In this document: one piece after another, positions 3,108-26,707 of the stretch
Layout: every line of letters begins with the position of its first letter
Position numbering within the stretch: the stretch's first letter is position 1
IMG/VR virus record: IMGVR_UViG_3300000313_000003
Coordinates: 1-37,860 of that record
DNA from: a virus
Direction: 5' to 3' (one strand)
Length of the DNA stretch: 37,860 nt
Made by a program: the position numbers and the translations under genes
The notes under the pieces: generated by a model
What the model was told of the DNA's origin: nothing
The model's input: only the letters and a program-made list of their open reading frames with translations
The model's database searches: none

Positions 3108-4646
3108 TTAGCTCATTATCCAGAAGTTTACAACAATGTTTGCAGCAGTAGATGCAGCACCAGCATTAAATATTCTGAATGCAATAGATGTAGCCGCTAC
3201 ATTCGTATATTCTACAATTTGCAATGCCGAGTTTACAGTTGAGCAAGATACCGTTGCTAATACTACGGAACCTGCTGCTACCATAGAGTTGGTTACAGTG
3301 AGTGTTCCATAAGCACCATTGGCAATTACATCCGTAAATGTTGCAGATCCAATACGGCAATTTGCAACGATTGGAGAAGCACCAGCTCCTGGAGCGACAG
3401 GTGTCGTTAAGATACCGCCTGCTAAAAGTTGTAGAGCATCAGTGGTTGCAGCAGTTGTTTGAATAGTTAAACCAACGCCTGTTCCTGCTGATGTATTAAC
3501 AGCAAGACCAGTTCCAGCACCACCTGCTAATGTAATTGCACTAGGTGCTGCAATCGTCAATGCGCCAGTTTGGCTCCCAATGTTGATTGCATGAGCCGCA
3601 GCTCCTGTTCCAAGATTAATTACACCAGCTCGAGTTGCGCCAGTTGCTAGTACATTCAATGTTTGAGTACCAGCAGAGCCTGCTCCTGTTAAAATATTTA
3701 CTGTAGAATTTGCGCCTGATGCACCATTGGAAATATTTACTATTTGAGCAGTTGTATTTATACCGTTGGCGATTTGAACTAAGGATCCATTAATCCCTTC
3801 TGCAATGTTAACTGTAGTAGCACCAGTTCCAGAACCTATGGCTATGATATTTCCAGCAGTCGATGATCCTAAAGTAATAAGACCTGATTGTCCTGTACCG
3901 CCAATTGTGATCGTTCCGCCAACTGTAGCTGCACCGATTGCATATGTTGAACCAGCAACACCATTAAGTGAAAAATTACCAGTACCAACTTTTAGAACTA
4001 TAGCTGCTGCGAGAGTACTTGATCCAATATCCACTACATGAGCTGCTGCTGAATCGCCGATATGAATAGTACGAGCTACTGTGCCTACGCCTATAGAAAT
4101 GGCGTTGGCTGCGTTATCTGTTCCTATGCCTACAGTACCGCCGTTTATAGTGGATGCGCCCGTTATTGCGGCACCACCTGCGGTTACAGTTAATCCTGTA
4201 GCAGCGGTGATAGTTGTGCCCGAAGAAAAGGAAGTTCCTGAATGCATCGTTGTAGTTGATGCTACTGATCCTGGAGCTAGAAAAGCTGCCGGAATTGTAA
4301 ATGTTATCGTACTTCCTGCGCCAGTTGTTGTGATTTGTCCGCCTGTTCCTGCAAGAGTAATATTTCCTGCGAACGGAGCAATTGCACCGCCTCCATCACC
4401 TGTCAGAGTATTTAGTGGTCCACCATTTGTACCAAGAAGAACCCATGTTGCTGCGCCTGATGCAACTTGGGTAAGCATATAAGATATAGCTGTTATTTTA
4501 TTGTCCCATACTTGTCCTAATGGATAGCCAGTATCATTGGCTGTAGGAGCTCTTTTTGAAATAATTGGAGATGGATAGAATTTTGTAAAATTAGGCTGCG
4601 GCGACCCTGAAAGTGTCTGAGCCTGTGGTCTGAGCTTTTGCGCCAT
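3108..4646 (-). CDS. Large tail fibre protein with IxIG repeat shaft
   Basis: 512 residues; ATG at 4646 with GAGG six bases upstream. The first ~80 residues (MAQKLRPQAQTLSGSPQPNF to ATWVLLGTNGG) form a head module that resembles the start of the fibre encoded at 860. Residues ~90-420 are Gly/Ala/Thr/Ile-rich with many short repeats of the INIG / ITIG / ISIG type every 10-20 residues, a pattern of beta-helical or beta-prism fibre shafts. The last ~95 residues form a distinct C-terminal domain ending AANIVVNFWIMS. First gene of the fibre cassette, preceded by a 267-base gap that must hold its promoter. Likely the main host-recognition fibre. Confidence 0.85.
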   Translation of the reverse strand: MAQKLRPQAQTLSGSPQPNFTKFYPSPIISKRAPTANDTGYPLGQVWDNKITAISYMLTQVASGAATWVLLGTNGGPLNTLTGDGGGAIAPFAGNITLAGTGGQITTTGAGSTITFTIPAAFLAPGSVASTTTMHSGTSFSSGTTITAATGLTVTAGGAAITGASTINGGTVGIGTDNAANAISIGVGTVARTIHIGDSAAAHVVDIGSSTLAAAIVLKVGTGNFSLNGVAGSTYAIGAATVGGTITIGGTGQSGLITLGSSTAGNIIAIGSGTGATTVNIAEGINGSLVQIANGINTTAQIVNISNGASGANSTVNILTGAGSAGTQTLNVLATGATRAGVINLGTGAAAHAINIGSQTGALTIAAPSAITLAGGAGTGLAVNTSAGTGVGLTIQTTAATTDALQLLAGGILTTPVAPGAGASPIVANCRIGSATFTDVIANGAYGTLTVTNSMVAAGSVVLATVSCSTVNSALQIVEYTNVAATSIAFRIFNAGAASTAANIVVNFWIMS

Positions 4647-4703
4647 ATAACCTCACGCCGTCTTGTTAAAGAATTTAATTTACATTAACAGGTGGGGTTA
4701 TGG

Positions 4704-4868
4704 ATGTCAAAATATAAATTTAAGTTGTCATATCATGCACAAGAAATAGAAGTTTTGTGTGCATATTTTTATTTCGTACACAGAAAATCATCTAATTTGT
4801 GCATATTGTCGTCGAATTGCGCCAAGATTGCGCGGCGTAATCAAATTCAAATAATCTTAACATCTTGA
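4704..4868 (+). CDS. Possible 54-residue protein, doubtful
   Basis: Opens at ATG 4704 after a GGTGGGG purine stretch and closes at TGA 4868. It is basic and lacks any motif I recognise. It lies in the divergent gap between the leftward fibre operon and a rightward small-gene cluster, which also contains imperfect repeats of TGTGCATATT (around 4757 and 4797). It may be noise in a regulatory gap. Confidence 0.25.
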   Translation: MSKYKFKLSYHAQEIEVLCAYFYFVHRKSSNLCILSSNCAKIARRNQIQIILTS

Positions 4869-4913
4869 TGATTAATGGTTTTTGAAGTAGACTTTGGGAA
4901 AAAGGAGGATATT

Positions 4914-5162
4914 ATGAATATTGATTGGAGTGCAATTTTTACTGGAGTTGGTGTTGTCATTACAATATTTTTAAGCTTTTGGAAATTAAGTGCTAAACTT
5001 TCTATGCTACAAACTTCTATGGAAAGTATAGATTTTCGACTCGGCAATGTAGAAAAAGATGTAAATGATCTTAAAATACGTGTGGGTTCTATTGAAACTA
5101 GAGTTACAGTTATGGAGACAATTCTCTCGATGATGGGTGCTCCATTGAAAGAGAAGAAATAG
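4914..5162 (+). CDS. Small membrane-anchored coiled-coil protein
   Basis: ATG 4914 is preferred over an upstream ATG at 4875 because a strong AAAGGAGG lies just before it. 82 residues: one N-terminal membrane segment (AIFTGVGVVITIFLSFW, ~5-22), then a long amphipathic helix with heptad-like spacing (FRLGNVEKDVNDLKIRVGSI). This layout matches the protein at 27474 and is common among small phage proteins called holin-like or hemolysin-XhlA-like. Lysis or membrane role is inference only. Forms a short rightward cluster with 5165-5299. Confidence 0.75.
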   Translation: MNIDWSAIFTGVGVVITIFLSFWKLSAKLSMLQTSMESIDFRLGNVEKDVNDLKIRVGSIETRVTVMETILSMMGAPLKEKK

Positions 5163-5164
5163 AA

Positions 5165-5299
5165 ATGAATATCTTCTTCATGGTAGGAATTTTTTTATTC
5201 GTAATGTTTGCTATATATACGCTTAAAGAAGAGAGAAATGAAATTAATGATTTTAGAGAGCGAGTTGCAAGATTAGAAATTTTAATACAGAGGAAATAA
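5165..5299 (+). CDS. 44-residue membrane protein with charged tail
   Basis: Starts at ATG 5165, two bases after the stop of the previous gene. Residues 2-18 are a hydrophobic membrane segment (NIFFMVGIFLFVMFAIY), followed by a charged helix (KEERNEINDFRERVARLEIL). Topology and size resemble small i-spanins or holin partners. Position right after another membrane/coiled-coil gene suggests a membrane pair, perhaps a lysis module. Function not established. Confidence 0.6.
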   Translation: MNIFFMVGIFLFVMFAIYTLKEERNEINDFRERVARLEILIQRK

Positions 5300-5300
5300 A

Positions 5301-5366
5301 ATGTTTAGTTTTTTTATGTGTATTATATGCTTTATCTTTTTATCTGCTTCTGGCGCTGATTCTTAA
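5301..5366 (+). CDS. Possible 21-residue hydrophobic peptide
   Basis: Begins one base after the previous stop (ATG 5301, with GAGG at 5289-5293) and reads MFSFFMCIICFIFLSASGAD. It looks like a signal peptide with nothing after it. It overlaps the 3' end of the convergent gene at 5332. Could be a tiny membrane peptide or chance. Confidence 0.25.
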   Translation: MFSFFMCIICFIFLSASGADS

Positions 5367-6780
5367 TATTTTTCTCATCTCTGATTTTAATTTCTTCATT
5401 GATTTTATCTATGATTTTCAATTCTTTAATAAAAGCTGAAGTATTTTCCTGAATTCCAGAAGCTATTGCTTTTGCATAATGCTTTTGAAGTTGTGGACTT
5501 TTTGCAGCACGTGCAAAAAACTCTCCTGCCTTTAATATCCCATAACCAGCAGCGGGATAAGCAACTCCTCCTGTATGATATAATCCATACATAAACGCAT
5601 AAGGAATGGCTTTCTTAAATTCTGTATTTAATGGAAGTTTATCTAATACTCGATCAACTTTGGTTTTCATAAGATTAGAAAATTTTTTACTAGCTTTTGT
5701 GGCAGCATAAGCTTCGTTTGCATTACGCATGTGTTTAAGATATGTTGGATTATGTTGCGTTCCATATAATTCAAGTGCATCATCGATAGATTTAGAAAAT
5801 GGCAAAAATTGATATTTATTTTTTTGAAGTAACGCAGGATCATCCATTAATTCATTTATATCTCTTTTTGCTTGATCCAAATTTTTTACTGAAATTCTTC
5901 CTCCAGAAATCTTATTCAAAAGTTCATCTATTGGTTTTAAAACAGCAGATTTTGATGGTGTTGAAACACCTTGCGTTAAAGTGGATTTAATAGAATTTAA
6001 TTCATTTTCTAATTGTGAAACATTGGTTATAGCATTAGCAGGAATAGCTTGTTGTGCTTGACCATATTGATTTTTATAATATGATTTTGCTGTATTTTCA
6101 CCTTTTAGAAGTCCGGAAAAAAACATTGTTCCTAATTTCCCATATTCTTGTTGTTTTTCAGAACCACCCAGCGCTTTTATAACTTCTTTTGCACCTTCGC
6201 CTGCTGTTCCTTGAACTATGGCACGACCAATTGATGTTGATCCTGTTAAAGGATTTACTAAAGAAGCAATAGTTTCTGTATATTCACCTCTTCGTTTTTG
6301 TCCTTCTGTTTTCGGTTCAGTTTTTCCACCAGAAATTTCTTTTGTAATTTCTCTAAATCGTTCCGTTTTAGGCAATTGTAGACCAATTGATGAATTCTCA
6401 TCATATTCGCCAAGATCAAATCCAGGTATTTTTCTTAAAACATTCCATAATAATTTATTGCCAAATTCCTGTATTTCTCCAGGACCTCCTAAAATAGTTT
6501 CAGCAGCTCTTGCCACATGCATAGGAATTTCTTCAGAAATTTGCCGAGGAAATGTTTTTTGTTCAGGAACCTCATATTGTTCCCAATTGTTTTCTTTTTT
6601 AAATGGCTGCGTTGCTGTTTGAAGCTGTCTTTGTAAAGGAGTTTCTTTTGTTATAGATTGTGGTGCTTCTTTCTTTAAAGAAGATTTGACATTCTTATTC
6701 ACACGATATTTTTCCCAATACTCATTATCCGAAGTTTGAGAATCCAATTGCTGAGAAGAAAGATCATTTTGTTGAATCAT
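5332..6780 (-). CDS. Putative internal virion / ejection protein
   Basis: 482 residues, mostly helical and highly charged. N-terminal 90 residues are low-complexity Q/K/E-rich with two WE(K/Q)Y(R/E)V motifs (WEKYRVNKNV ~22 and WEQYEVPEQ ~68), which look like short repeated docking peptides. The middle holds glycine-bearing hydrophobic patches; near residue 395 there is a possible membrane-active helix (AIPYAFMYGLYHTGGVAYPAAGY). Start ATG overlaps the stop of the upstream gene (TAATG). Last of three consecutive large genes at the distal end of the head-tail block, the place where P22-like and other podoviruses encode proteins ejected with DNA. Function inferred from position, size and composition. 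Confidence 0.75.
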   Translation of the reverse strand: MIQQNDLSSQQLDSQTSDNEYWEKYRVNKNVKSSLKKEAPQSITKETPLQRQLQTATQPFKKENNWEQYEVPEQKTFPRQISEEIPMHVARAAETILGGPGEIQEFGNKLLWNVLRKIPGFDLGEYDENSSIGLQLPKTERFREITKEISGGKTEPKTEGQKRRGEYTETIASLVNPLTGSTSIGRAIVQGTAGEGAKEVIKALGGSEKQQEYGKLGTMFFSGLLKGENTAKSYYKNQYGQAQQAIPANAITNVSQLENELNSIKSTLTQGVSTPSKSAVLKPIDELLNKISGGRISVKNLDQAKRDINELMDDPALLQKNKYQFLPFSKSIDDALELYGTQHNPTYLKHMRNANEAYAATKASKKFSNLMKTKVDRVLDKLPLNTEFKKAIPYAFMYGLYHTGGVAYPAAGYGILKAGEFFARAAKSPQLQKHYAKAIASGIQENTSAFIKELKIIDKINEEIKIRDEKNIKNQRQKQIKR

Positions 6781-8111
6781 TAGAATCCGAAGCCTCCTTC
6801 TTGAATTGCTTTTTGTGCTTCATTTATAGGGATTCTATATGTTTTACCATCTTTATAAAGAGTAATTTTTTCTCCTTGACTAAGATCACTCATTAAATCA
6901 TTAATTAAAGGTTCTACTTTGTCAAAAACAGAAATTTCAATATCTTTAGGAGTTTTTCCATTATTTTCTTTCATTGTTTCTTTATATGATTGATAATATG
7001 TATCATTCATTTCACCAATTTGTTCCATCATATCTAATATTTGCAACCTACCTTCATTAGAATTTAACAATGTAGGTATACGTTGCAAAAAAATACCAAA
7101 TTCACTAGCTAGAATTCTTGCTCCATAATCGCCAGTAATCCCTGAAGTAAAATCATATACTCTTTTTTGATACTCTTCACTATTTGGATTGTTTAATATA
7201 CCTAATGGCAACCCAACTTTATCTAATAATGCAACCATTGCTGGTTCAGGCAATGTTCCTGACTTTGCTAAACTTCTAAGATGTTGAATATTAACTTTAT
7301 TTTTTATATGCGCTTGATGAGTGGCAAATATTTTGTCTCTAAATTCTTTAGATTCTTTTCTATTCTCTGATTCAGTTTTTGCTTCAAATTTTCTATCAGC
7401 TTCTGTCTTTCTATCGGCACGAGTTAATTCAGCTTGTCTTGCTGCTGATGCTATTTTTTCATTCTGTGTCATAGTATTAGCAATACTGGGATCTACAATT
7501 GCAGCTGCTAATCGTTGTTGAGGATTTGACGTAATATTAGATGTTGGTGTTTCTTGTTGTATCTGTCGTTGCTGTATAAATTGCTGTGGATTTTGTTGTG
7601 GAAATTGCTGTTGTTGCAATTTTGCCGGCCCTTGCATGGGTTGATCACCCATTTGATTCATATTTTCTAATTGTTGTCCATAGAATGCACGATTCAATGC
7701 TTGATTTACAGGTGCTTGATATGGTTGATTTGGTTGACCACCAAGTTCAGGCAAAATATCTTGTAATAACTTTACTTTTGAACGAACTTTTTGCTCTTGT
7801 TTTCGTTGTTCTAAACTAGAAGAAAAAACAGCTTTTGCAATCTCAGGATTTTCATCACCAAATGCATCTTCTTGCAAACCCATTTGTCGAGCAATAGCAG
7901 AGTTGTATTTGCGATTTTCTTTACGTTGAAGCATCTTTTCAATGCCGTAGTTTAAGCCTTTCTCAAGCCCACCACCTAGACCTTTCCCCAATGTTTCTGC
8001 AAGAAAATCTGCCGATGATTGTCCTCTTTCTCGTGCTTGACGTGGCTGTGGAATATTATATCGAGGATTATAACCTTCACCGTGCATTTGTGGCATAAAT
8101 TGCATTGTCAT
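6780..8111 (-). CDS. Putative internal virion protein, Gln-rich
   Basis: 443 residues. Begins MTMQFMPQMHGEGYNPRY, then a glycine patch (LGKGLGGGLEKGLNYGIEKM, ~42-61), a Gln/Pro/Asn-rich stretch (~120-200, e.g. QQQQFPQQNPQQFIQQR), a charged helical segment (RADRKTEADRKFEAKTESEN) and a folded C-terminal ~180 residues. Poly-Q regions plus long helices are typical of proteins packed inside podovirus heads and ejected. A GAGG lies rather far (about 10 bases) upstream of ATG 8111; the second ATG two codons later is possible. Sits between two other candidate ejection genes. Confidence 0.75.
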   Translation of the reverse strand: MTMQFMPQMHGEGYNPRYNIPQPRQARERGQSSADFLAETLGKGLGGGLEKGLNYGIEKMLQRKENRKYNSAIARQMGLQEDAFGDENPEIAKAVFSSSLEQRKQEQKVRSKVKLLQDILPELGGQPNQPYQAPVNQALNRAFYGQQLENMNQMGDQPMQGPAKLQQQQFPQQNPQQFIQQRQIQQETPTSNITSNPQQRLAAAIVDPSIANTMTQNEKIASAARQAELTRADRKTEADRKFEAKTESENRKESKEFRDKIFATHQAHIKNKVNIQHLRSLAKSGTLPEPAMVALLDKVGLPLGILNNPNSEEYQKRVYDFTSGITGDYGARILASEFGIFLQRIPTLLNSNEGRLQILDMMEQIGEMNDTYYQSYKETMKENNGKTPKDIEISVFDKVEPLINDLMSDLSQGEKITLYKDGKTYRIPINEAQKAIQEGGFGF

Positions 8112-8117
8112 ATTTTA

Positions 8118-9113
8118 TTATCCTCTAAACGGAGTATACATACGTGGCACACCAAAGGTTGGCATTTCCATTCTAGAAGGCATTGTTGGCATTGGACCTC
8201 TTGCTGGAACACTTGCTCCTGGGGATCCTCCACCAAACCATTGTCCACTTCCAAGACCTTGACCTACACCAGTAGCTATTCCTTCGCCTAAGCCCCCTGT
8301 TGATTCAACACCCATCATATTTCCAATTCCTTGTCCAATTCCAGAACCTACTGCTGCACCTGCGGGACCTCCATAATATGCACCTGCTGCGGTAGCACCT
8401 GCATGCATTACTGGAGCTGCAAATTTTGCAAAAGCACTAGGTCCAACTGGATTAGGCTGTACTCTTTGACCAATTCCTCTTACTGGAGGAGCTGGAAGAG
8501 ATGGAGCTGGTATGCCTACTCTATTAAATGTAGGATGTAGAGCATAAGGAAGAAGATTCTGAGCTTGTTCAGATGGAGCTCCCGCATATTGAAGAGCTTG
8601 TCCTGGCATCTGTGCTCGATAGCCTTCATGAAGAGCTGCTAATCTTTCTTGAAGATCTGTAGCAGCACGAGCTGATAGATTTTCAAAGGCCGAAGTTCGA
8701 GATTCATCACCACCTGTTAGTCGTTCTCTCAATGCAGGCAATATATCTTCTCTGAATTGTCGTAAGTAGGGAGCATTAAATCTAGATTGCGCTTCAGGTG
8801 ATCTTGAAAGATAATCAGAAATAACATCTTGTCCCTGTTCAAATATAGGCTGTCCACCTACACCGCCACCATAATTTTGACGAAAGTTTTCACCAACTTC
8901 GCCAACTAATTGTCGCTGCTCAGGACGTAATGTTTCGAATTTTTTAAATTCAGGTTTTTGCTTTTTAAGCATATTGACATATTTATTATAGGCTCTTTTA
9001 TTTTGGCCGTATTGTTTGCCTATGTCTTTTTTACCTAATTTTTCTTCATGATATGCCTTCTTTCGAGCATTTTTCTTTTGTTTTGTCCGATGTAAGAAAG
9101 ACCAGAATCCCAT
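8118..9113 (-). CDS. Putative ejection protein with glycine-zipper segment
   Basis: 331 residues; ATG 9113 preceded by GAGGTG. The N-terminus is strongly basic (FLHRTKQKKNARKKAYHEEK), the middle is a charged helix, and residues ~235-290 carry alternating small residues (GATAAGAYYGGPAGAAVGSG, GIGQGIGNMMGV) in a glycine-zipper pattern typical of membrane-inserting phage ejection proteins. The C-terminus is Pro/Met-rich. Order after the nozzle-like and fibre-like genes supports a DNA-delivery role. The exact family is not recognised. Confidence 0.75.
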   Translation of the reverse strand: MGFWSFLHRTKQKKNARKKAYHEEKLGKKDIGKQYGQNKRAYNKYVNMLKKQKPEFKKFETLRPEQRQLVGEVGENFRQNYGGGVGGQPIFEQGQDVISDYLSRSPEAQSRFNAPYLRQFREDILPALRERLTGGDESRTSAFENLSARAATDLQERLAALHEGYRAQMPGQALQYAGAPSEQAQNLLPYALHPTFNRVGIPAPSLPAPPVRGIGQRVQPNPVGPSAFAKFAAPVMHAGATAAGAYYGGPAGAAVGSGIGQGIGNMMGVESTGGLGEGIATGVGQGLGSGQWFGGGSPGASVPARGPMPTMPSRMEMPTFGVPRMYTPFRG

Positions 9114-9163
9114 AATTCACCTCAATTTTCTCTAATCTAGCATTAAAGAAATTATTTCAATAG

Positions 9164-9655
9164 TTAAAATGATGTCTTCAAATACTCAAGAAAAATAAGT
9201 CCTGATGTGATGTTGGGTGCAGCTGCTCCATTGACAATGACAATATTTGGATCTACGATTTTAATGCTTATCTGAGTATTGACGGCAACTGCATCGGCAT
9301 AAGGAATCGATCTTTTATCCACTACATTCGTAATGCATGTTCCCCATATGCGAATATAATTCGTCACATTCGTCAATCCATGCAAAATATTGGTTGTAGC
9401 ACCGGCATTTGTGGCTGGCAATGCATACATCTTAATGAAAGAAAAGTTCTTGTTTTGCGCTTGTGTAAAAGAGCCATATTGTATTCCTGTTAAGAACTCA
9501 ACAGGCTCTATTATGCCAATGACTCTAATATTTACAGCTGATGATACTTCAATATCTCGTTGAGTGAGTACTGTCAGAAGCTCTGTCGGCTCTTGAGGAT
9601 ATACTTTGCTACTCGATAGATAGGGAGCTTGTGTATTGGCGGGTTGAAATGTCAT
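9164..9655 (-). CDS. Virion-associated beta-rich protein, unknown
   Basis: 163 residues, ATG 9655 overlapping the TGA of the upstream lipoprotein gene. The C-terminal half contains HGLTNVTNYIRIWGTCITN and a stretch ending ITSGLIFLEYLKTSF; it looks like an all-beta tail or fibre-attachment domain. No catalytic residues or membrane segments are visible. It follows the nozzle-like gene and precedes ejection-type genes, so a tail role is plausible. Family not recognised with confidence. Confidence 0.75.
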   Translation of the reverse strand: MTFQPANTQAPYLSSSKVYPQEPTELLTVLTQRDIEVSSAVNIRVIGIIEPVEFLTGIQYGSFTQAQNKNFSFIKMYALPATNAGATTNILHGLTNVTNYIRIWGTCITNVVDKRSIPYADAVAVNTQISIKIVDPNIVIVNGAAAPNITSGLIFLEYLKTSF

Positions 9656-9825
9656 GGTAACAATCCTGGCTTTATAGCTAAATCAGCCGTGGCTCCTTCT
9701 TCTTCATCTACAACATCTGTCGCTTCTCCATTTGTATGAACCATGGTTATGGAAAAATTACAGCCTTGACAGGTTAAAATAAGACAAATATAGAGACAAA
9801 ATAAATATAGTCGTAACCTTATCAT
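9652..9825 (-). CDS. 57-residue secreted peptide, probable lipoprotein (spanin-like candidate)
   Basis: ATG 9825 overlaps the stop of the 762-residue gene (ATGA), and its own TGA overlaps the next ATG, so it is tightly embedded in the operon. The N-terminus MIRLRLYLFCLYICLILTC is a positively charged hydrophobic signal sequence ending in Cys-rich TCQGC, an imperfect lipobox. The mature part is short and acidic (VVDEEEGATADLA). Size and type fit a small outer-membrane lipoprotein such as an o-spanin, but the lipobox is not canonical. A Gram-negative host would fit. Confidence 0.65.
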   Translation of the reverse strand: MIRLRLYLFCLYICLILTCQGCNFSITMVHTNGEATDVVDEEEGATADLAIKPGLLP

Positions 9826-12110
9826 TGTACAAGTCTCCCTGTTGGAGCAAGATACATAACCATTGCATGAAGAGTAAATTCAGAATCTGCAATAAGACCA
9901 TTCGCCATTTGAACATCGGATAGAGTCAACTGAAGTTGGAAATTTTGACAAATTTGGTTGATATAGAGTCTATGCCAGATCTTTTCCTGCTGAACATTAA
10001 AGGAAATACCAGGTTCTGGAGCTGTCGATACAATGTTATTGCCGATAATGCCTACATTATTGGGATCGTTTGGATCATTGACGATCTGGTTGTCGCTTTC
10101 ATCAATGAAACAGTTGACGGTGAATTCACCGGTTCCTGAGTTGTTACATAGAAAGTCTATATAGCATATACGACACTGCATGCCCTGTTCATAAAAGGGC
10201 GCAAAGACTTTTGTATATATATTCAATCGATTCATAGTGATGATCTGACCACCACCTAAATATGTTCCCGTAAGTTTCTGATAAGGGAAAATATTATTTA
10301 CTGCATCGTAGAACTGGATATTGAAGTTGTTGGCATCGATAACAACAACGCGATAGATGATGTTGTTAATGACATTCGCAGTCCCAATGATATTGAGAAT
10401 GGTTATAAATTGACCTGTGACAAAGTTATGATTTGGCACAGTAACCTGAGTATTGCCATTTCCATCAAGGGCTATGGCGGTAATAGATAACGAAGGGTCA
10501 TTGGCATCTTCATCGCTTAAGATCTCAACATATCCCTGTTGATTGCCAGCAATAACTTCTAATATAAGATCGGTTTGTGCCCCTGAATTCCACTGTAAAT
10601 TCCATGTATTCCATGTACGATATGGAATGGTTGCCCATGTCATATTGTTCGTTCTTTGCCAGTATCCATAACAGGTAAAGGAGTCGTTGAAAGTGGAAAA
10701 TGAATTATTTAAATAGTTGTAGACCAATACTTTATTAGGGAATTTTACAGGCGCAGACCTGGTATCACCCTCTTGAGAATATGCCCAATAAACAAGCTGC
10801 TGTTTAAAATCACGAATGCCATACACACGCTGAAAGCCAGAATTATCGCTATTAAAATTGAAAATATAATCTGGAATATTGAGATCAATTCTTTGAACAT
10901 TGACGCTATCATCTGTGATAATACCTTGATTGCTAAATGAGAAAACACCTTTATCAAAAGGAATATAGCTGAATGTAGAAAGAGAACCAAACTCTGAATT
11001 CACCTTTTGAAATTCAAAAGGCTTCGTCTCATTCTGGGTATAAACGATTCTCCATGAAGAGCGCTCAAACTTAACAACGAGGACGTCCTTTATGAAATAG
11101 GCAGTAATGATATTTTCGTCCGTAGCTGCATCAATGAAGCCACCCTGGCCTACTACATCGCTTAACCATGCATTTGCGCCTAGCGGGTCGCCATTTGCAG
11201 AAAATCGGCATCTTTGAGGATTCTGAGTAGATGCTGCAAGATTAGCGCCTTCATATGTATTAAAAGCAAGCAATCTGCCTTTATAGGGAAGTAAGATTCT
11301 GGCTTGCTGTAATTTATTTGGAATAGCATCAACATTTGGATTAAATGTCGTCCACGTTGTGCCATCATAATATCGTAATGGATCAGGAGCTCCAGTCTTA
11401 TTGAAATTCGTAGCCCAGAAAAGATCGCCATTAACATTTTTAAAATATGAATATGTCCAGAAAAGTTGTGAATCAGAGCCTTGCCATGTCGTTGGGGCAA
11501 TAGATGGTAATTCTCTAAACAGTCCTGTTCCAGGCACATAGTCATATGCATATTTGGTATCGAAGCCGATAGTCTGTTGTGTATTGGTCGTTGATAATAG
11601 AAATCTTGTGAAAAGACCCATACAGGGAAGTGAAGGAAAATAACTAAATGTAACTACTACATTTGTTGCACCGCCAAGGGCAGGAACAAAGTTTAGCTGA
11701 AGCGCGCCTGTGATATAATTTATTGTCCCACTATTTGTAGCTGGCAAGCCAGCAAGCGTTCCATTACCATTATCGGTAAATGTAACACCCCCTACTGTAA
11801 TAGCAAGCGTCCCTGCTCGAATTTCTGCATTTGGCTCAGTTGCTCGAACGTTAATGGCAGGATCGGCTAATATATCAGCGTTATTATATACAGCACCATT
11901 TGCTTGTGTGTTAAGCGTTATCATCGATAAATTTCGCTGAAGTCTCCCAAGAAGTTCATATCCCTTTCTTTTAGGAACTTTTCCCCTCCAATTATACGCA
12001 TCTTCTATAGAAGGGAACGCTTTATCAGGTGTAAGAAATGGCTCAAGATAGGTAAACAAGCCAGAATTTTCTTCATAATTTGATATGTAGAACGGCTGAA
12101 TTCCTGTCAT
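9822..12110 (-). CDS. Large tail protein, nozzle/tail-tube-like
   Basis: 762 residues, the largest structural protein. N-terminus (FTYLEPFLTPDKAFPSIEDA YNWRGKVPKRKGYELLGRL, ~19-57) matches a pattern often seen at the start of podovirus tubular tail proteins, where the segment before a KR(K/P)GY turn anchors the nozzle. The rest is beta-rich with WD-like aromatic repeats (FWATNF, YYDGTTW, YWAYSQEG, GYWQRTNN), fitting a propeller-like nozzle resembling T7 gp12/P22 gp10. Starts four bases inside the previous gene (ATGA). Likely closes the portal channel and carries fibres. Assignment by position and architecture. Confidence 0.7.
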   Translation of the reverse strand: MTGIQPFYISNYEENSGLFTYLEPFLTPDKAFPSIEDAYNWRGKVPKRKGYELLGRLQRNLSMITLNTQANGAVYNNADILADPAINVRATEPNAEIRAGTLAITVGGVTFTDNGNGTLAGLPATNSGTINYITGALQLNFVPALGGATNVVVTFSYFPSLPCMGLFTRFLLSTTNTQQTIGFDTKYAYDYVPGTGLFRELPSIAPTTWQGSDSQLFWTYSYFKNVNGDLFWATNFNKTGAPDPLRYYDGTTWTTFNPNVDAIPNKLQQARILLPYKGRLLAFNTYEGANLAASTQNPQRCRFSANGDPLGANAWLSDVVGQGGFIDAATDENIITAYFIKDVLVVKFERSSWRIVYTQNETKPFEFQKVNSEFGSLSTFSYIPFDKGVFSFSNQGIITDDSVNVQRIDLNIPDYIFNFNSDNSGFQRVYGIRDFKQQLVYWAYSQEGDTRSAPVKFPNKVLVYNYLNNSFSTFNDSFTCYGYWQRTNNMTWATIPYRTWNTWNLQWNSGAQTDLILEVIAGNQQGYVEILSDEDANDPSLSITAIALDGNGNTQVTVPNHNFVTGQFITILNIIGTANVINNIIYRVVVIDANNFNIQFYDAVNNIFPYQKLTGTYLGGGQIITMNRLNIYTKVFAPFYEQGMQCRICYIDFLCNNSGTGEFTVNCFIDESDNQIVNDPNDPNNVGIIGNNIVSTAPEPGISFNVQQEKIWHRLYINQICQNFQLQLTLSDVQMANGLIADSEFTLHAMVMYLAPTGRLVQ

Positions 12111-16091: not shown

Positions 16092-16727
16092 CTATGCCAA
16101 TGTGCAGCGTAAATTGAAGACCCAAGTATCATTAAGAATTCTTGGTACTTCAGCCATTTTCCAGCCCACAGATGCGTTAAGAGCCAGTGGTCCATCATAT
16201 ATTGGTGGACGATAGATAAATTGGGCCGAATACCCATCTTGCTCGACTGCAGCGAAGGATTCGCGGCCACAGCAGAATATATTATAAACATCTGCACCTA
16301 AAAGAGATGCATTTGCGGTAAAACTACCAATACTAGAGAGCAAGAATCTAAGGTTCGCAACAGAACCCCATTCTGCATCTAGTGTGGACTGTTGATTTGG
16401 ATAATTCCACTTCTGTATAAAGTCCTGAACGTTGTCTACTTGTCCTATAAGGGCGGTATTGCCCAAAGCGAAGTACGCATCGCGCACCGGTGCGGTCGCA
16501 AAACGGTTTTCGCCTTGTACACCTGAAACGAAACTATAAGCATTATTGCTTCTGAGTGTCTTAATGACGACATCGATATCACTACGAGTGATTTCGGTTG
16601 GATTATCGCCATTTGCACCGCCTACGCAGTTTATGAATCCTGCGGTAGCTTGGAGCATGTTTCTCATGAGTTCGTCTTCTGTCTGACGAAGGCTCACGCC
16701 TAGTCTCTGAGTCGCTTCATTTAATAC
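16092..16727 (-). CDS. Major capsid protein, exon 3 (N4-gp56-like)
   Basis: The final and largest of three exons. Joined product (160 + 155 + 636 nt) is 316 residues, a normal length for this family. Exon 3 gives 211 residues: VLNEATQRLGVSLRQTEDEL and an aromatic/Asn-rich core (AYSFVSGVQGENRFATAPVR, NYPNQQSTLDAEWGSVANLR), ending FNLRCTLA. The family normally has a helix after DP(V)LNEA, and here DP ends exon 2 while VLNEA begins exon 3, which fixes the junction. Read alone from ATG 16730, exon 3 has no SD: its upstream region is the intron end, so it cannot be a separate gene. Capsid assembly follows the scaffold gene at 18478. Splicing is predicted, not tested. Confidence 0.88.
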   Translation of the reverse strand, partial: VLNEATQRLGVSLRQTEDELMRNMLQATAGFINCVGGANGDNPTEITRSDIDVVIKTLRSNNAYSFVSGVQGENRFATAPVRDAYFALGNTALIGQVDNVQDFIQKWNYPNQQSTLDAEWGSVANLRFLLSSIGSFTANASLLGADVYNIFCCGRESFAAVEQDGYSAQFIYRPPIYDGPLALNASVGWKMAEVPRILNDTWVFNLRCTLA

Positions 16728-17935
16728 CATTCTGTTACTTTTATGACCTTTTCAGGCGGGCCAACCTCTTCGGATCGGCCTCACGAGTTTCTTCTTAGCT
16801 ATTGCTCGTGGTCAGACTATCGCATCCTCTTTCGAGGCCATCTCATTTAGTCGTTCAGCGTGGATTGCTCCTTCGCCCTTGTCACCCTGCTTTTGGGCTT
16901 CCAAGTCAATTAGAGTTGGTTTAGAGACCCCATATTTGTTTAAACTTTTAATCGTTTGATAACATTGTTCTCTAAAAATAAGTTCTTCTTCAGGAATTCC
17001 GGCTTTGCAATATTTGGTATTTTGTGATTGTTCGCAAAAACCCAAAAGAATTTGTGCATTTTCTTTTTTTGAATGAAGGAACGGAATTACACGTTTTAAA
17101 AATTCCATACATTCATTTTTTGTATAAATACCAAATTGATAATGAAATCCGGCATTAGTTGATTTATTTTTAGGAATATATAACTTTCCTACATTGCAAT
17201 TTTCACGAAGATAATTTATGGCTCTTGTATCAGTCATTGATAAAGATATAACTGGTAAATATCTTGGATTTTTTACGTCAGTTCCCTTGTTTTGAACTTG
17301 TTTTTTCAAAGCAAATGAACCATCGGTATCCATTAAACCAGCCATATAGGACCAAAACAAAGTATCTTCAGACATTCCCTTAGCAAGAAATTGAGTTATT
17401 TTTTGATGACATTGTTTCCATTCATTAAATTGAATCATTTTTAGATAATCTCTTTCTCTATCTTCAATTATAGATAATGAAAGTATTTGACCTCTGACAA
17501 ATGGATTCTTTTCAATAAATTCTTTTAGAAACTGTGCTCTTTCTTTTTTTATTTGTAGAAATGGAATTATTTTTTCCAAAACTGGCAAAACATTTTTTTG
17601 ACTTCTCAATCTCCAACGTATAAGAGCATGTCCTTTCGAGCCATCCTTACAAATATGATGCTTATCTTTAAATAGAGTTCCACCAAATTTTTCTTTTAAA
17701 AGAAAAATGAAGGATCTCCAAGTATTGCATTGTAAAAGTGGAAAATATAAGGGAGCTGCTGGCGCAGGCAATTTGCCTATGCTGAAACTTCCATCTCCAT
17801 CCATTACGCCCGCTAAATAAGCCATAATCTCATCTTTTTTTTTCATATAATCTCCATTTTATTACATGGATAGATTACATGATTACAATGTTAGGTACAA
17901 GTTAAATATTATGCTACCAAACCATGTTGTAGGTT
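16728..17935 (-). ncRNA. Group I intron 2 in the capsid gene (1208 nt, contains LAGLIDADG ORF)
   Basis: It separates capsid exons 2 and 3. The ribozyme core is visible near the 3' end: GACUUGGAAGCCC with GGGUGACAAGG (P4/P6 region), GACUAAAU...AUAGUC (P7 pairing with guanosine site) and a terminal G after UAACAGAAUG. The same blocks occur in the 198-nt intron 1. Exon 2 ends in U, as required for the P1 U-G pair; an internal guide could not be paired cleanly to CAAGACCCU, so the 5' site could shift a few bases. A homing endonuclease lies inside and its last codons overlap the core. Confidence 0.85.
16812..17846 (-). CDS. LAGLIDADG homing endonuclease inside capsid intron 2
   Basis: 344 residues, ATG 17846 with GGAG upstream, all within the intron. 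Two LAGLIDADG motifs are clear: YLAGVMDGDGSF (~10-21) and YMAGLMDTDGSF (~167-178), each with the acidic residue that binds the catalytic metal, so it is a two-motif monomeric enzyme. It should cut an intronless copy of the capsid gene and so spread the intron. The C-terminal ~30 residues (LIDLEAQKQGDKGEGAIHAE, then RLNEMASKEDAIV) are translated from the ribozyme core, so coding and RNA structure share bases. Possibly also a maturase; not testable here. Confidence 0.95.
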   Translation of the reverse strand: MKKKDEIMAYLAGVMDGDGSFSIGKLPAPAAPLYFPLLQCNTWRSFIFLLKEKFGGTLFKDKHHICKDGSKGHALIRWRLRSQKNVLPVLEKIIPFLQIKKERAQFLKEFIEKNPFVRGQILSLSIIEDRERDYLKMIQFNEWKQCHQKITQFLAKGMSEDTLFWSYMAGLMDTDGSFALKKQVQNKGTDVKNPRYLPVISLSMTDTRAINYLRENCNVGKLYIPKNKSTNAGFHYQFGIYTKNECMEFLKRVIPFLHSKKENAQILLGFCEQSQNTKYCKAGIPEEELIFREQCYQTIKSLNKYGVSKPTLIDLEAQKQGDKGEGAIHAERLNEMASKEDAIV

Positions 17936-18090
17936 AGGGTCTTGGTTTTGAAGAGTTACTTGTTCGTTCAGTAGGATATACGTGCCATAAAAGTCCATTT
18001 GGGCATCTATGTTTATACTTGTAAGCTGCTGTGGAGGCGGTGTAATGCCGCTATTCCCTAGTGGTACAGTAGCTGTTGCTAATGGATTAT
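17936..18090 (-). CDS. Major capsid protein, exon 2
   Basis: 155 nt, 51 codons plus two bases that complete a Tyr codon begun in exon 1. Reads YNPLATATVPLGNSGITPPP, QQLTSINIDAQMDFYGTYIL and LNEQVTLQNQDP. The PP/TP loop followed by a QMDFYGTYI strand is the N4-gp56 family pattern (thr-pro rich loop before a Gln-Tyr-Gly strand). It has no start codon or SD of its own. Confidence 0.87.
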
Positions 18091-18288
18091 CGTTCTGTTA
18101 CTTTTATGACCCTTTTGGGCGGGGAGTCTTGTTATTCCTCCCTCTCTATGTTTCCATAGAGTTCGGACTATCGCATCTCTTTTTAGAGTCTCTAGATTTA
18201 GTCTCTCAGGCTGTATTTACACTTGCCCCTTGTCACCCCGTAGGGCTTCCAAGTCAATTACTAGAGATTTAAAGACGACATAATGTTT
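18091..18288 (-). ncRNA. Group I intron 1 in the capsid gene (198 nt, no ORF)
   Basis: The P1 helix is clear: exon GACGAU pairs with GUCGUC in the intron, with the required U-G pair at the 5' splice site. Core blocks follow: GACUUGGAAGCCC, GGGGUGACAAGG, GACUAAAU...AUAGUC (P7), and the intron ends in G (AACAGAACG). Joining gives RMRR-Y-NPLATAT, restoring one continuous capsid frame; the unspliced frame stops at once (CGA TAA). The 3' segment GGGTCATAAAAGTAACAG is nearly the same as in intron 2. At 198 nt it is a near-minimal group I intron. Confidence 0.9.
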
Positions 18289-18448
18289 ATCGTCTCATTC
18301 TCAAAGTTGTACCACCGTTCCTTGGCATGGCCTTAAGATCTGCTGGGATCTTGTGGATCATGTATGGAACAGGGACGCTCAAAAGTTTGAACGAAAAACT
18401 TTGTTGAATGGGCGCTGGTAACACAGCTGTTGTGGTAATTGCTCCCAT
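18289..18448 (-). CDS. Major capsid protein, exon 1
   Basis: Starts at ATG 18448 with AAGGA upstream (TTAAGGAAAAGTT). Encodes 53 codons plus one base: MGAITTTAVLPAPIQQSFSF, then KLLSVPVPYMIHKIPADLKA and MPRNGGTTLRMRR. The end, a glycine-bearing loop before basic residues (GGTTLRMRRY), is the family's N-arm motif that joins the first strand in exon 2. Follows the scaffold gene by 29 bases. Confidence 0.87.
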
Positions 18449-24838: not shown

Positions 24839-24906
24839 AGCCCAAGCCGGATTCTTACCAGCATCGCTTGCTTAATCGGCAAGAGCTTTGATTAAGCTAT
24901 TGGGCT
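24839..24906 (-). ncRNA. tRNA-shaped cloverleaf after the terminase stop
   Basis: On the minus strand the 68 nt fold into AGCCCAA/TTGGGCT (7-bp acceptor), TA, GCTT-AATCA-AAGC (D arm), T, CTTGC-CGATTAA-GCAAG (5-bp stem, 7-nt loop), CGAT, GCTGG-TAAGAAT-CCGGC (T arm). Arms have exact tRNA lengths and order. Kept: T8, A14, A21, R37, G53, T54, R57, A58, Y60, C61. Lost: G18G19, T33, T55, C56, CCA end. Anticodon position would be ATT (Asn loop with two changed bases). It begins inside the terminase stop codon TAG. Either a decayed tRNA or a tRNA-like RNA. Confidence 0.6.
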
Positions 24907-26707
24907 AAAAGCTATACCTCATGTCGTCTGTATCTTGAAAGAAACGTGGAAGTTCAGGCTCAAGACCAAAAGCTTCTCGCTTGGTCTTTTCCCAATCGAT
25001 CTTATGATCATGCTTATTCCAGAAATGACTATATAGAGCGTACCGAAATGCGTCCAAACAGTTGTGGACAACAATTCCGTTGGCAATAAAACAATGAGTA
25101 CTAGGTACATTAAGACAGTAAACATCTTCTATACCAGCATATCTAATAGACTTTATTTTTATTCCAATAGGTTGTGCATGAGCAAGATCTAGAAACGACA
25201 ACATGCATTCGTCTCTTAGGACATTTTGTTGTGATCCAATATTCTGTTCGCTTGTCTTGGTAGAATTTTTGATCATTGAAGAATTGATATTGCATGTGAT
25301 TATTGTATCGGAAAGCATCAAATGCTGCAATTCTTTCCAACCATTAATTGTTAGGAATTTATGATTTTTAGTAGCTTTGATTGTGCTTCCATCTTCAAGT
25401 TCTATTTCAAATATCTCTGCATTAGTTTGTGTCTTTTTGGCATCCACATAATGAAGCTCTTTAAAAGATTGATCAAACGCATCATATGATAGGATTATTC
25501 CATGTGAAGGAATGTCTTTAATCTGTTGATATTTATCATTAACAAAAACTTTAGAGTCACCAGTGATGCAATGATCATGAGATTTTAGCGGCTTATCTTC
25601 CCCAAGTCTAACACTTCTAGAATCCCAGACATAGCCTTGAATCTCTCGAATGAGATTAGGACATGCCTTTGTTATCTTTATCGTTCCATTGCTCATGAAG
25701 TTAGATACTAGACGAATTCCGTCGAGCACTTCGTTCTCTGCATCGAAGAGGTTTTGCACACCTTGCTTTGATAGCTCGAGCTTGAAAGATGCCGCACTAG
25801 GGTCAACATAGATTGCTTTGATAGGCTTATTAGCTATGAACTTCTTGAAGTCATCAGCATATTCGGAGTCTGTCTTTTGCCGTTGCTTAATCTTGCTATC
25901 CCAATAGTATTCGGCTTCTACCCAACAATTGGGGAACCTACTTTTGTTTATACCAATAAGCACGAAGCTGCAAGGATTAGTAGTACCATAATCAACGCCA
26001 ACGATATACTGCTCAGCAGGATGAGAACAAAAATCCATAGTGTGTACATTAACGTCGAAAAAGTCATATATGGCGCCTTCAGCTTGTACCCAACAGCCTT
26101 CAATAAAACGTTTGTACCATATACCTTTATATTGACGCTTCAAATATTCTTTTTCTTCATGAGTAAGCTGCGGATTGTCTTCGAAGTTGAATTGCCAAGA
26201 AAGAGCGTCTGGATTGTTGTCTAGGAAGTCAGTCTTCAACCAATGATAGGGAGTATCAGGGTTTGTAGTTATGAATATGCGAGCTCCCTTCATAGCACAA
26301 CGTGATATGAGCATGCGAAATACAGATTCAGGAATGAGTGTTCCTTCATCGACATAAGCACCTTGAAATGTAGCTCCTCTAATCTTTGATTCAGAGCGCT
26401 CATCATCTGCACCTACTATGAATACCTGTTTACCAAAGATATCCATTTCACGTTTGCCAGCATACCATTTAGCCTCTGTGCCAAGGATGTCTGTCATAAG
26501 AGTGAGCAAGTTGCGACGGAAGGTATCATAGGTTCTTGCGATCATGCAATAGGAGCCATCAGGGCCGGTCATAAGCTCATATATCCAACGAACCATGGAT
26601 ACATAGGTTTTACCAGAACGAACTGCGCCTTCCCAGATATTGATTTTGGCATTCGATTCATGGAAGGAACGGTTTTGTTTAGGCGAGAGTGGATGGATAA
26701 GTTGCAA
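24905..26707 (-). CDS. terL: Large terminase subunit (ATPase and nuclease), interrupted by an intein
   Basis: 600-residue precursor, 430 after removal of the intein (residues 380-549). Start is TTG at 26707 with AGAGG six bases before it. Walker A GAVRSGKT (27-34), Walker B AYVDEG (D120, E121), a TTNPD coupling motif (~160), then the RNase H-like nuclease with GVDYGTTNP and YVDPSAASF acidic motifs. The last motif is HDHC|LDAFRY, with the intein placed at that Cys. Packages DNA into the head using ATP and cuts it. Next to small terminase and portal. Phage with P22-like portal and this terminase usually package by headful; inference. Confidence 0.95.
   Translation of the reverse strand: MQLIHPLSPKQNRSFHESNAKINIWEGAVRSGKTYVSMVRWIYELMTGPDGSYCMIARTYDTFRRNLLTLMTDILGTEAKWYAGKREMDIFGKQVFIVGADDERSESKIRGATFQGAYVDEGTLIPESVFRMLISRCAMKGARIFITTNPDTPYHWLKTDFLDNNPDALSWQFNFEDNPQLTHEEKEYLKRQYKGIWYKRFIEGCWVQAEGAIYDFFDVNVHTMDFCSHPAEQYIVGVDYGTTNPCSFVLIGINKSRFPNCWVEAEYYWDSKIKQRQKTDSEYADDFKKFIANKPIKAIYVDPSAASFKLELSKQGVQNLFDAENEVLDGIRLVSNFMSNGTIKITKACPNLIREIQGYVWDSRSVRLGEDKPLKSHDHCITGDSKVFVNDKYQQIKDIPSHGIILSYDAFDQSFKELHYVDAKKTQTNAEIFEIELEDGSTIKATKNHKFLTINGWKELQHLMLSDTIITCNINSSMIKNSTKTSEQNIGSQQNVLRDECMLSFLDLAHAQPIGIKIKSIRYAGIEDVYCLNVPSTHCFIANGIVVHNCLDAFRYALYSHFWNKHDHKIDWEKTKREAFGLEPELPRFFQDTDDMRYSF
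25061..25570 (-). other. Mini-intein in the large terminase (170 residues)
   Basis: Begins with CITGDSKVFV (block A, Cys1), has TKNHKFLT (block B, T-x-x-H) and ends with GIVVHN before Cys+1 (blocks F/G: CLNVPSTHCFIANGIVVHN). No LAGLIDADG or HNH segment lies between blocks, so it is a mini-intein. Cys1, His-Asn end and Cys+1 needed for class 1 protein splicing are all present. Insertion is between DH and CLDAFRY of the terminase nuclease. Confidence 0.93.

Follow-up and report, generated by a model that had tools for sequence, protein, structure and literature searches.

A phage N4-gp56 major capsid gene divided by two group I introns, and short insertions in related genes that may depend on a neighbouring intron

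Results

Exons and protein of the capsid gene

The window analysed here, i.e. the whole stretch of 37,860 nucleotides of viral DNA (IMG/VR record IMGVR_UViG_3300000313_000003), carries on its minus strand a major capsid gene that is divided into three exons by two insertions (Table 1). The boundaries were determined by a splice alignment, in which the protein of an uninterrupted orthologue (L001; 315 aa, 88% identical) was aligned with the window, introns being permitted. In this alignment, T at the 5' splice site and G at the 3' splice site were obligatory. The insertions were found exactly at 18288-18091 and 17935-16728, and all exon and intron coordinates of the original prediction were reproduced to the base. 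Since the reference is an intronless orthologue, this check of the boundaries is not circular. The joined exons amount to 951 nt and encode, in frame, a single uninterrupted protein of 316 residues followed by a stop codon, with no internal stop, as had been predicted. It had also been stated that exon 1 would stop at once if left unspliced; its translation indeed gives RMRR and a stop codon. Empty intron sites were seen in dozens of uninterrupted orthologues, and 103 of the compared loci gave an uninterrupted reading.

Table 1. Features of the major capsid gene and its insertions in the window.
Feature	Position	Strand	Remarks
Exon 1, major capsid gene	18289..18448	-	codons 1-53 and base 1 of codon 54; final base T; from splice alignment with the L001 protein and TIGR04387
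Intron 1, predicted group I, 198 nt	18091..18288	-	after cds nt 160; ORF-free
P1 of intron 1	18271..18294	-	exon GACGAT (18294-18289) pairs with guide GTCGTC; P10 ATTAT pairs with 3' exon ATAAT
Exon 2	17936..18090	-	remainder of codon 54 through codon 105; final base T; from splice alignment
Intron 2, predicted group I, 1208 nt	16728..17935	-	after cds nt 315; boundaries from splice alignment
LAGLIDADG homing endonuclease ORF (putative), 344 aa	16812..17846	-	fills the P1 loop and overlaps the guide and the core down to P7
P1 guide GGGGTC of intron 2	16926..16931	-	partner is the exon end GACCCT (17941-17936), ~1 kb away
Exon 3	16092..16727	-	codons 106-316 and stop

The joined protein was identified as an N4-gp56 major capsid protein, the type originally proposed, by TIGR04387 (NCBIfam), whose curated cutoff of 60 bits was passed with 138.3 bits over nearly the full length (residues 5-312). 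Pfam gave the protein no name, while NCBIfam did, and a search of PDB sequences with the capsid protein returned no relatives. Against PHROG 1357 (major head protein), exon 3 by itself scored 48 bits, and the joined protein scored 101 bits. The coverage by TIGR04387 and the gain with PHROG 1357 therefore indicate that the residues of exons 1 and 2 are part of the capsid protein; the alignment to the capsid family, which had been proposed as a check, thus bore out the prediction. The open reading frame available to a gene caller begins at ATG 16730, inside intron 2, and a gene caller would give exon 3 only, as anticipated.

Group I features of the two insertions

Both insertions had been taken for group I introns, and in both of them P1, the P3-P8 core, P7 and a final G were found. 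P1 has a U.G pair at the splice site in each case (GACGAU/GUCGUC in intron 1 and GACCCU/GGGGUC in intron 2), and the P7 pairing GACUA/UAGUC described for intron 1 is also present.

The core was analyzed with a covariance model, R1, which was built from 21 short introns at different sites of the capsid gene in relatives having one to five insertions in that gene. Intron 1 belongs to the training set, and intron 2 lies outside it. When these 21 sequences were folded by RNAalifold without constraints, P3, P4, P5, P6, P8, P9 and P9.1 emerged, and 29 of the 35 pairs showed changes on both sides. With P1 and the P7 pseudoknot added, 85.2% of the cells were paired, against 67.5% in shuffles, none of 500 of which reached this value. 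Pairing dropped to about 40-46% when the structure was slid along the alignment. P3 and P7 were paired in 98.6% and 100% of the cells, respectively, both with changes on both sides. R1 matched intron 1, a training sequence, with 209.8 bits (E 6e-53) and intron 2 with 179.4 bits (E 4e-45; core at 16720-16950). In the scan of the window with R1, the two introns were the only strong group I matches, the next match having an E of 0.07.

The Rfam search proposed as a further check failed, in that RF00028 missed both introns in the window at the gathering score. Searched alone, intron 1 gave 27.5 bits against a gathering score of 50 (E 1.9e-5), with an alignment over the full length of the model; the RF00028 search reported no match to intron 2, even alone. 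The gathering score is a cutoff on scores rather than a feature of the structure, which was itself tested directly as described above. Judged from their sequences, the two insertions of the capsid gene are classed as group I introns.

We consider it very likely that an N4-gp56 capsid gene of a tailed phage is here interrupted by two group I introns, which are spliced to yield the 316-residue capsid protein. In the transcript, each intron would fold into the P3-P8 ribozyme core, and the end of the upstream exon would form P1 with the guide, leaving the U.G pair at the cut. Guanosine would then attack the 5' cut, and the freed exon would attack past the terminal G, so that the exons are joined. 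By established group I chemistry, self-splicing in the cell, the use of guanosine and activity of the endonuclease would be expected. Where an intron follows codon 105, this codon is CCT in all 26 genes, whereas 62 of the 145 genes lacking such an intron have CCT, a bias that is expected if U is needed at the cut.

There are other possible interpretations of these facts. Two stop-bearing insertions in an essential gene might mean that the capsid gene is a decayed pseudogene with insertions, in a genome that is defective or that has a second capsid gene. The joined exons, however, are in frame and match the capsid family end to end; the bounds of the insertions are exactly group I-like, P1 and the core covary, and the pattern is repeated in dozens of independent contigs. 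Decay of the gene is thus extremely improbable. It might also be supposed that the insertions are genuine remnants of group I introns, but that the capsid assembles from separate fragments or that the ribosome bypasses the gaps, since exon 3 by itself offers a long ORF that begins at its own ATG (16730). Against this, intron 1 cuts after the first base of codon 54, and a gap of 1208 nt greatly exceeds those of known ribosomal bypassing. In addition, the covarying P3 and P7 cores would be lost without selection for splicing. We therefore give this interpretation hardly any credence, and splicing of both introns is the reading adopted below.

Intron 2 as a composite intron

The ORF of intron 2 passed PF00961 (30.5 bits against a cutoff of 23.1) and matched PHROG 5046 with an E of 3.5e-20. 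Two LAGLIDADG motifs, YLAGVMDGDG and YMAGLMDTDG, were read from its sequence, and with the domain, the conserved acidic residues and two motifs, as in a monomer, the ORF has what characterizes the LAGLIDADG class. Its closest relatives (59%, 46% and 40%) are in introns placed at cds nt 315 in L174, L067 (a truncated contig) and L224. Enzymes of the LAGLIDADG family confer mobility by homing, and alleles without an intron at cds nt 315 presumably receive a copy of intron 2 through the action of its endonuclease.

At cds nt 315, the guide of most other introns, GGGGTC or GGGATC, is no more than ~20 nt away from the splice site, as is that of the introns lacking an endonuclease gene. In intron 2, the guide is found ~1 kb downstream because the LAGLIDADG gene occupies the P1 loop. 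P3 of intron 2 contains, by eye, a single internal A.A mismatch. Since the frame of the endonuclease gene overlaps the core, translation may compete with splicing.

The long P1 loop, the distant guide, the mismatch in P3 and the endonuclease gene lying over the core could be taken to mean that only the 198-nt intron splices well, and that intron 2 splices poorly and is mainly a homing element or a brake on capsid output. On the other hand, R1 gives the core of intron 2 179 bits, many introns of relatives that carry an endonuclease gene use the same site, and the capsid is needed in bulk. Poor splicing of intron 2 is thus unlikely, though less so than the two interpretations discussed above, and splicing of both introns is preferred.

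Introns in the capsid genes of relatives

Among 177 distinct complete capsid genes, 64 were interrupted, with up to five insertions per gene; since the relatives were selected for their resemblance to the window and through a pattern search, this fraction is not a population estimate. L145 and the truncated L067 and L104 were left out of the tally, and insertions placed by the aligner at L049 (nt 9), L053 and L196 were discarded as artefacts or frameshifts. Full introns were located at 22 positions of the capsid coding sequence, in addition to the short insertions at nt 267 described below, sites with a single example being less sure. To our knowledge, the capsid gene of this clade is among the densest targets of group I introns in phages.

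The capsid gene at L265:4449-7739, in a Parachlamydia bin, is interrupted by five full introns of group I, at cds 41, 146, 435, 505 and 834, and that of L264, in a Methanomicrobiales bin, has three full introns. At L069:3550-4280, one more intron lies close to the capsid start, and an exon of 15 nt separates it from the next intron. Another gene, ~4.6 kb upstream of the capsid gene, also contains a group I intron that belongs to the same family (L068:162-397). At L235:2887-3241, an intron-like core lies directly upstream of the capsid start with no obvious exon around it, and is possibly a remnant.

Mini-introns at cds nt 267

At nt 267 of the coding sequence, the relatives showed 26 distinct short insertions of 28-65 nt, hereafter mini-introns (e.g. 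L066:1116-1168, L172:3171-3198 and L156:1422-1451), each of which introduces a stop codon or a frame shift. Their guide consists of GCCGTA and one further base and pairs with YTACGGT, where the upstream exon ends, with U.G at the cut in 25 of 25 distinct rows; the outermost pair is absent in six mini-introns. The three bases before the guide form P10 with the first bases of the downstream exon (ACC/GGT, ACA/TGT, ACT/AGT, ACG/CGT or CAA/TTG). The mini-intron closes with a tail of 16-20 nt, which pairs with the last part of the short exon that follows; this pairing lies 7-11 nt before the 5' splice site of the next intron.

With the pairs written out, 94.9% of the cells were paired, against 76.5% in shuffles, none of 500 of which reached this value; the registers for this count were placed by hand and the percentage therefore leans to the structure, so that more weight falls on the changes seen on both sides. 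P10 was 100% paired with changes on both sides at all three pairs, and the tail stem covaried at eight of nine pairs. In minimum-energy folds, P1 of the mini-intron, the tail stem and P1 of the next intron, adjacent to one another, were found in 25, 25 and 26 of the 26 cases, respectively. The terminal G is present; G was required by the aligner, yet codons 89 and 90 allow the boundary little freedom. A P3-P8 catalytic core of their own is absent from the mini-introns, which total 28-65 nt, and they are not classed as autonomous group I introns.

In all 25 genes with a mini-intron, a full intron followed at nt 293, 315 or 317, while such an intron was present in 18 of 152 genes without one (Fisher 3.5e-19, uncorrected for relatedness). 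Full introns at 315 also occur without a mini-intron. For the mini-introns examined, R1 recognized a core in the intron that comes next, L090 being truncated and some matches being weak or split by an endonuclease gene. Mini-introns were also found at nt 246, 278 and 315 in distant relatives binned with Chlamydiota (L283, L284 and L285). Each of them combines a guide for P1 and P10 with a full intron that follows 54-86 nt further on. The tail stem is readily recognized in L285 and is weaker in L284, and in L283 its assignment is ambiguous between two helices.

We lean toward the view that the mini-introns of the relatives are core-less and contain the guide half only, and that the core of the neighbouring intron splices the mini-intron as well as its own intron. 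The mini-intron would then be a natural, dependent group I intron without a core. Its tail would pair with the end of the short exon, flush with P1 of the complete group I intron that comes next; the 3' splice site of the mini-intron would lie in the loop of this bridging stem, and the neighbouring core would carry out two reactions. The rule of distance suggests that the core acts in cis. Removal of the mini-intron by a core acting in trans, or by some other, yet unknown route, is an alternative.

Two further explanations were rejected. The T4 gene 60 bypass element is a gap of ~50 nt in a phage coding sequence. The mini-introns resemble it as short gaps in a coding sequence but differ in having no matching landing codon: none of the 26 ends in GGN, though a GGT codon precedes the gap. 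One mini-intron of a distant relative, moreover, splits a codon. Removal of the short exon together with the mini-intron was also discarded, as this exon retains capsid residues and its start pairs in P10. Splicing by the neighbouring core is our preferred explanation.

Other features of the window and the putative host

At residues 389-549, the ORF of the terminase large subunit (24905-26707, minus strand) contains an intein splicing domain of Pfam. The phage therefore appears to have an intein and two introns in its packaging and head genes. Five long ORFs (331-762 aa) located by the structural genes at 3108-12110, on the minus strand, had no Pfam matches.

By binning, capsid relatives were found in 8 of 234 Chlamydiota genomes (L263, L265 and L278-L291) and in 1 of 393 genomes of the phylum of the Methanomicrobiales bin. 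The contigs with relatives that were checked in these metagenome-assembled genomes (MAGs) were phage-sized and not integrated, and the link to a host therefore rests on binning. The co-binning in MAGs hints that the hosts are Chlamydiota.

Discussion

Introns in phage capsid genes are already known. Mycobacteriophage LittleE, like the window, has a group I-like intron and an endonuclease gene in its major capsid gene, the 5' cut being at a U and the last base of the intron being G; its splicing was demonstrated by RT-PCR and N-terminal sequencing (PMC3706429). In LittleE, however, there is one capsid intron and the endonuclease gene is antisense, whereas the window has two introns and its endonuclease gene is in the sense orientation in the P1 loop. 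According to a citation in the same paper, lactococcal phage Tuc2009 also has an intron in a capsid subunit gene (PMC3706429). The introns of the window thus add to the capsid-gene introns already known a new case from the N4-gp56 capsid family.

Intron-rich phage genomes are likewise known (PMC12363816). Jug phages and Bastillevirinae resemble the window in having many group I introns in essential genes, and their splicing is backed by metatranscriptomes or in vitro assays; the genes named there, however, are mainly those of DNA metabolism and terminase, while the capsid gene is the hotspot in the clade of the window (PMC12363816, PMC11878797). Twort orf142 is described as having three introns in one gene, with exon skipping (PMC10136302, PMC11878797). 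In Twort orf142 and Coxiella 23S rRNA, several group I introns lie in one gene and are separated by short exons (23 and 34 nt), a feature that resembles the clade of the window. Their introns, which show exon skipping, are nevertheless each described as group I and assigned to a named subgroup, whereas the mini-introns of the relatives have no core (PMC10136302). A core-less group I intron was not described in the literature searched, which covers few subscription papers.

The introns of the window fall below the Rfam threshold, and standard annotation loses a third of the capsid protein. A gene so heavily loaded with introns must, at the same time, be expressed in bulk. It would be notable if environmental chlamydiae had tailed phages, the link being one of binning. 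If the mini-introns are in fact spliced by the core of their neighbour, they would represent a natural step from self-splicing toward a separate catalyst, a step that is an open question for group I introns. The guide of the mini-intron, the bridge and the core can each be mutated separately.
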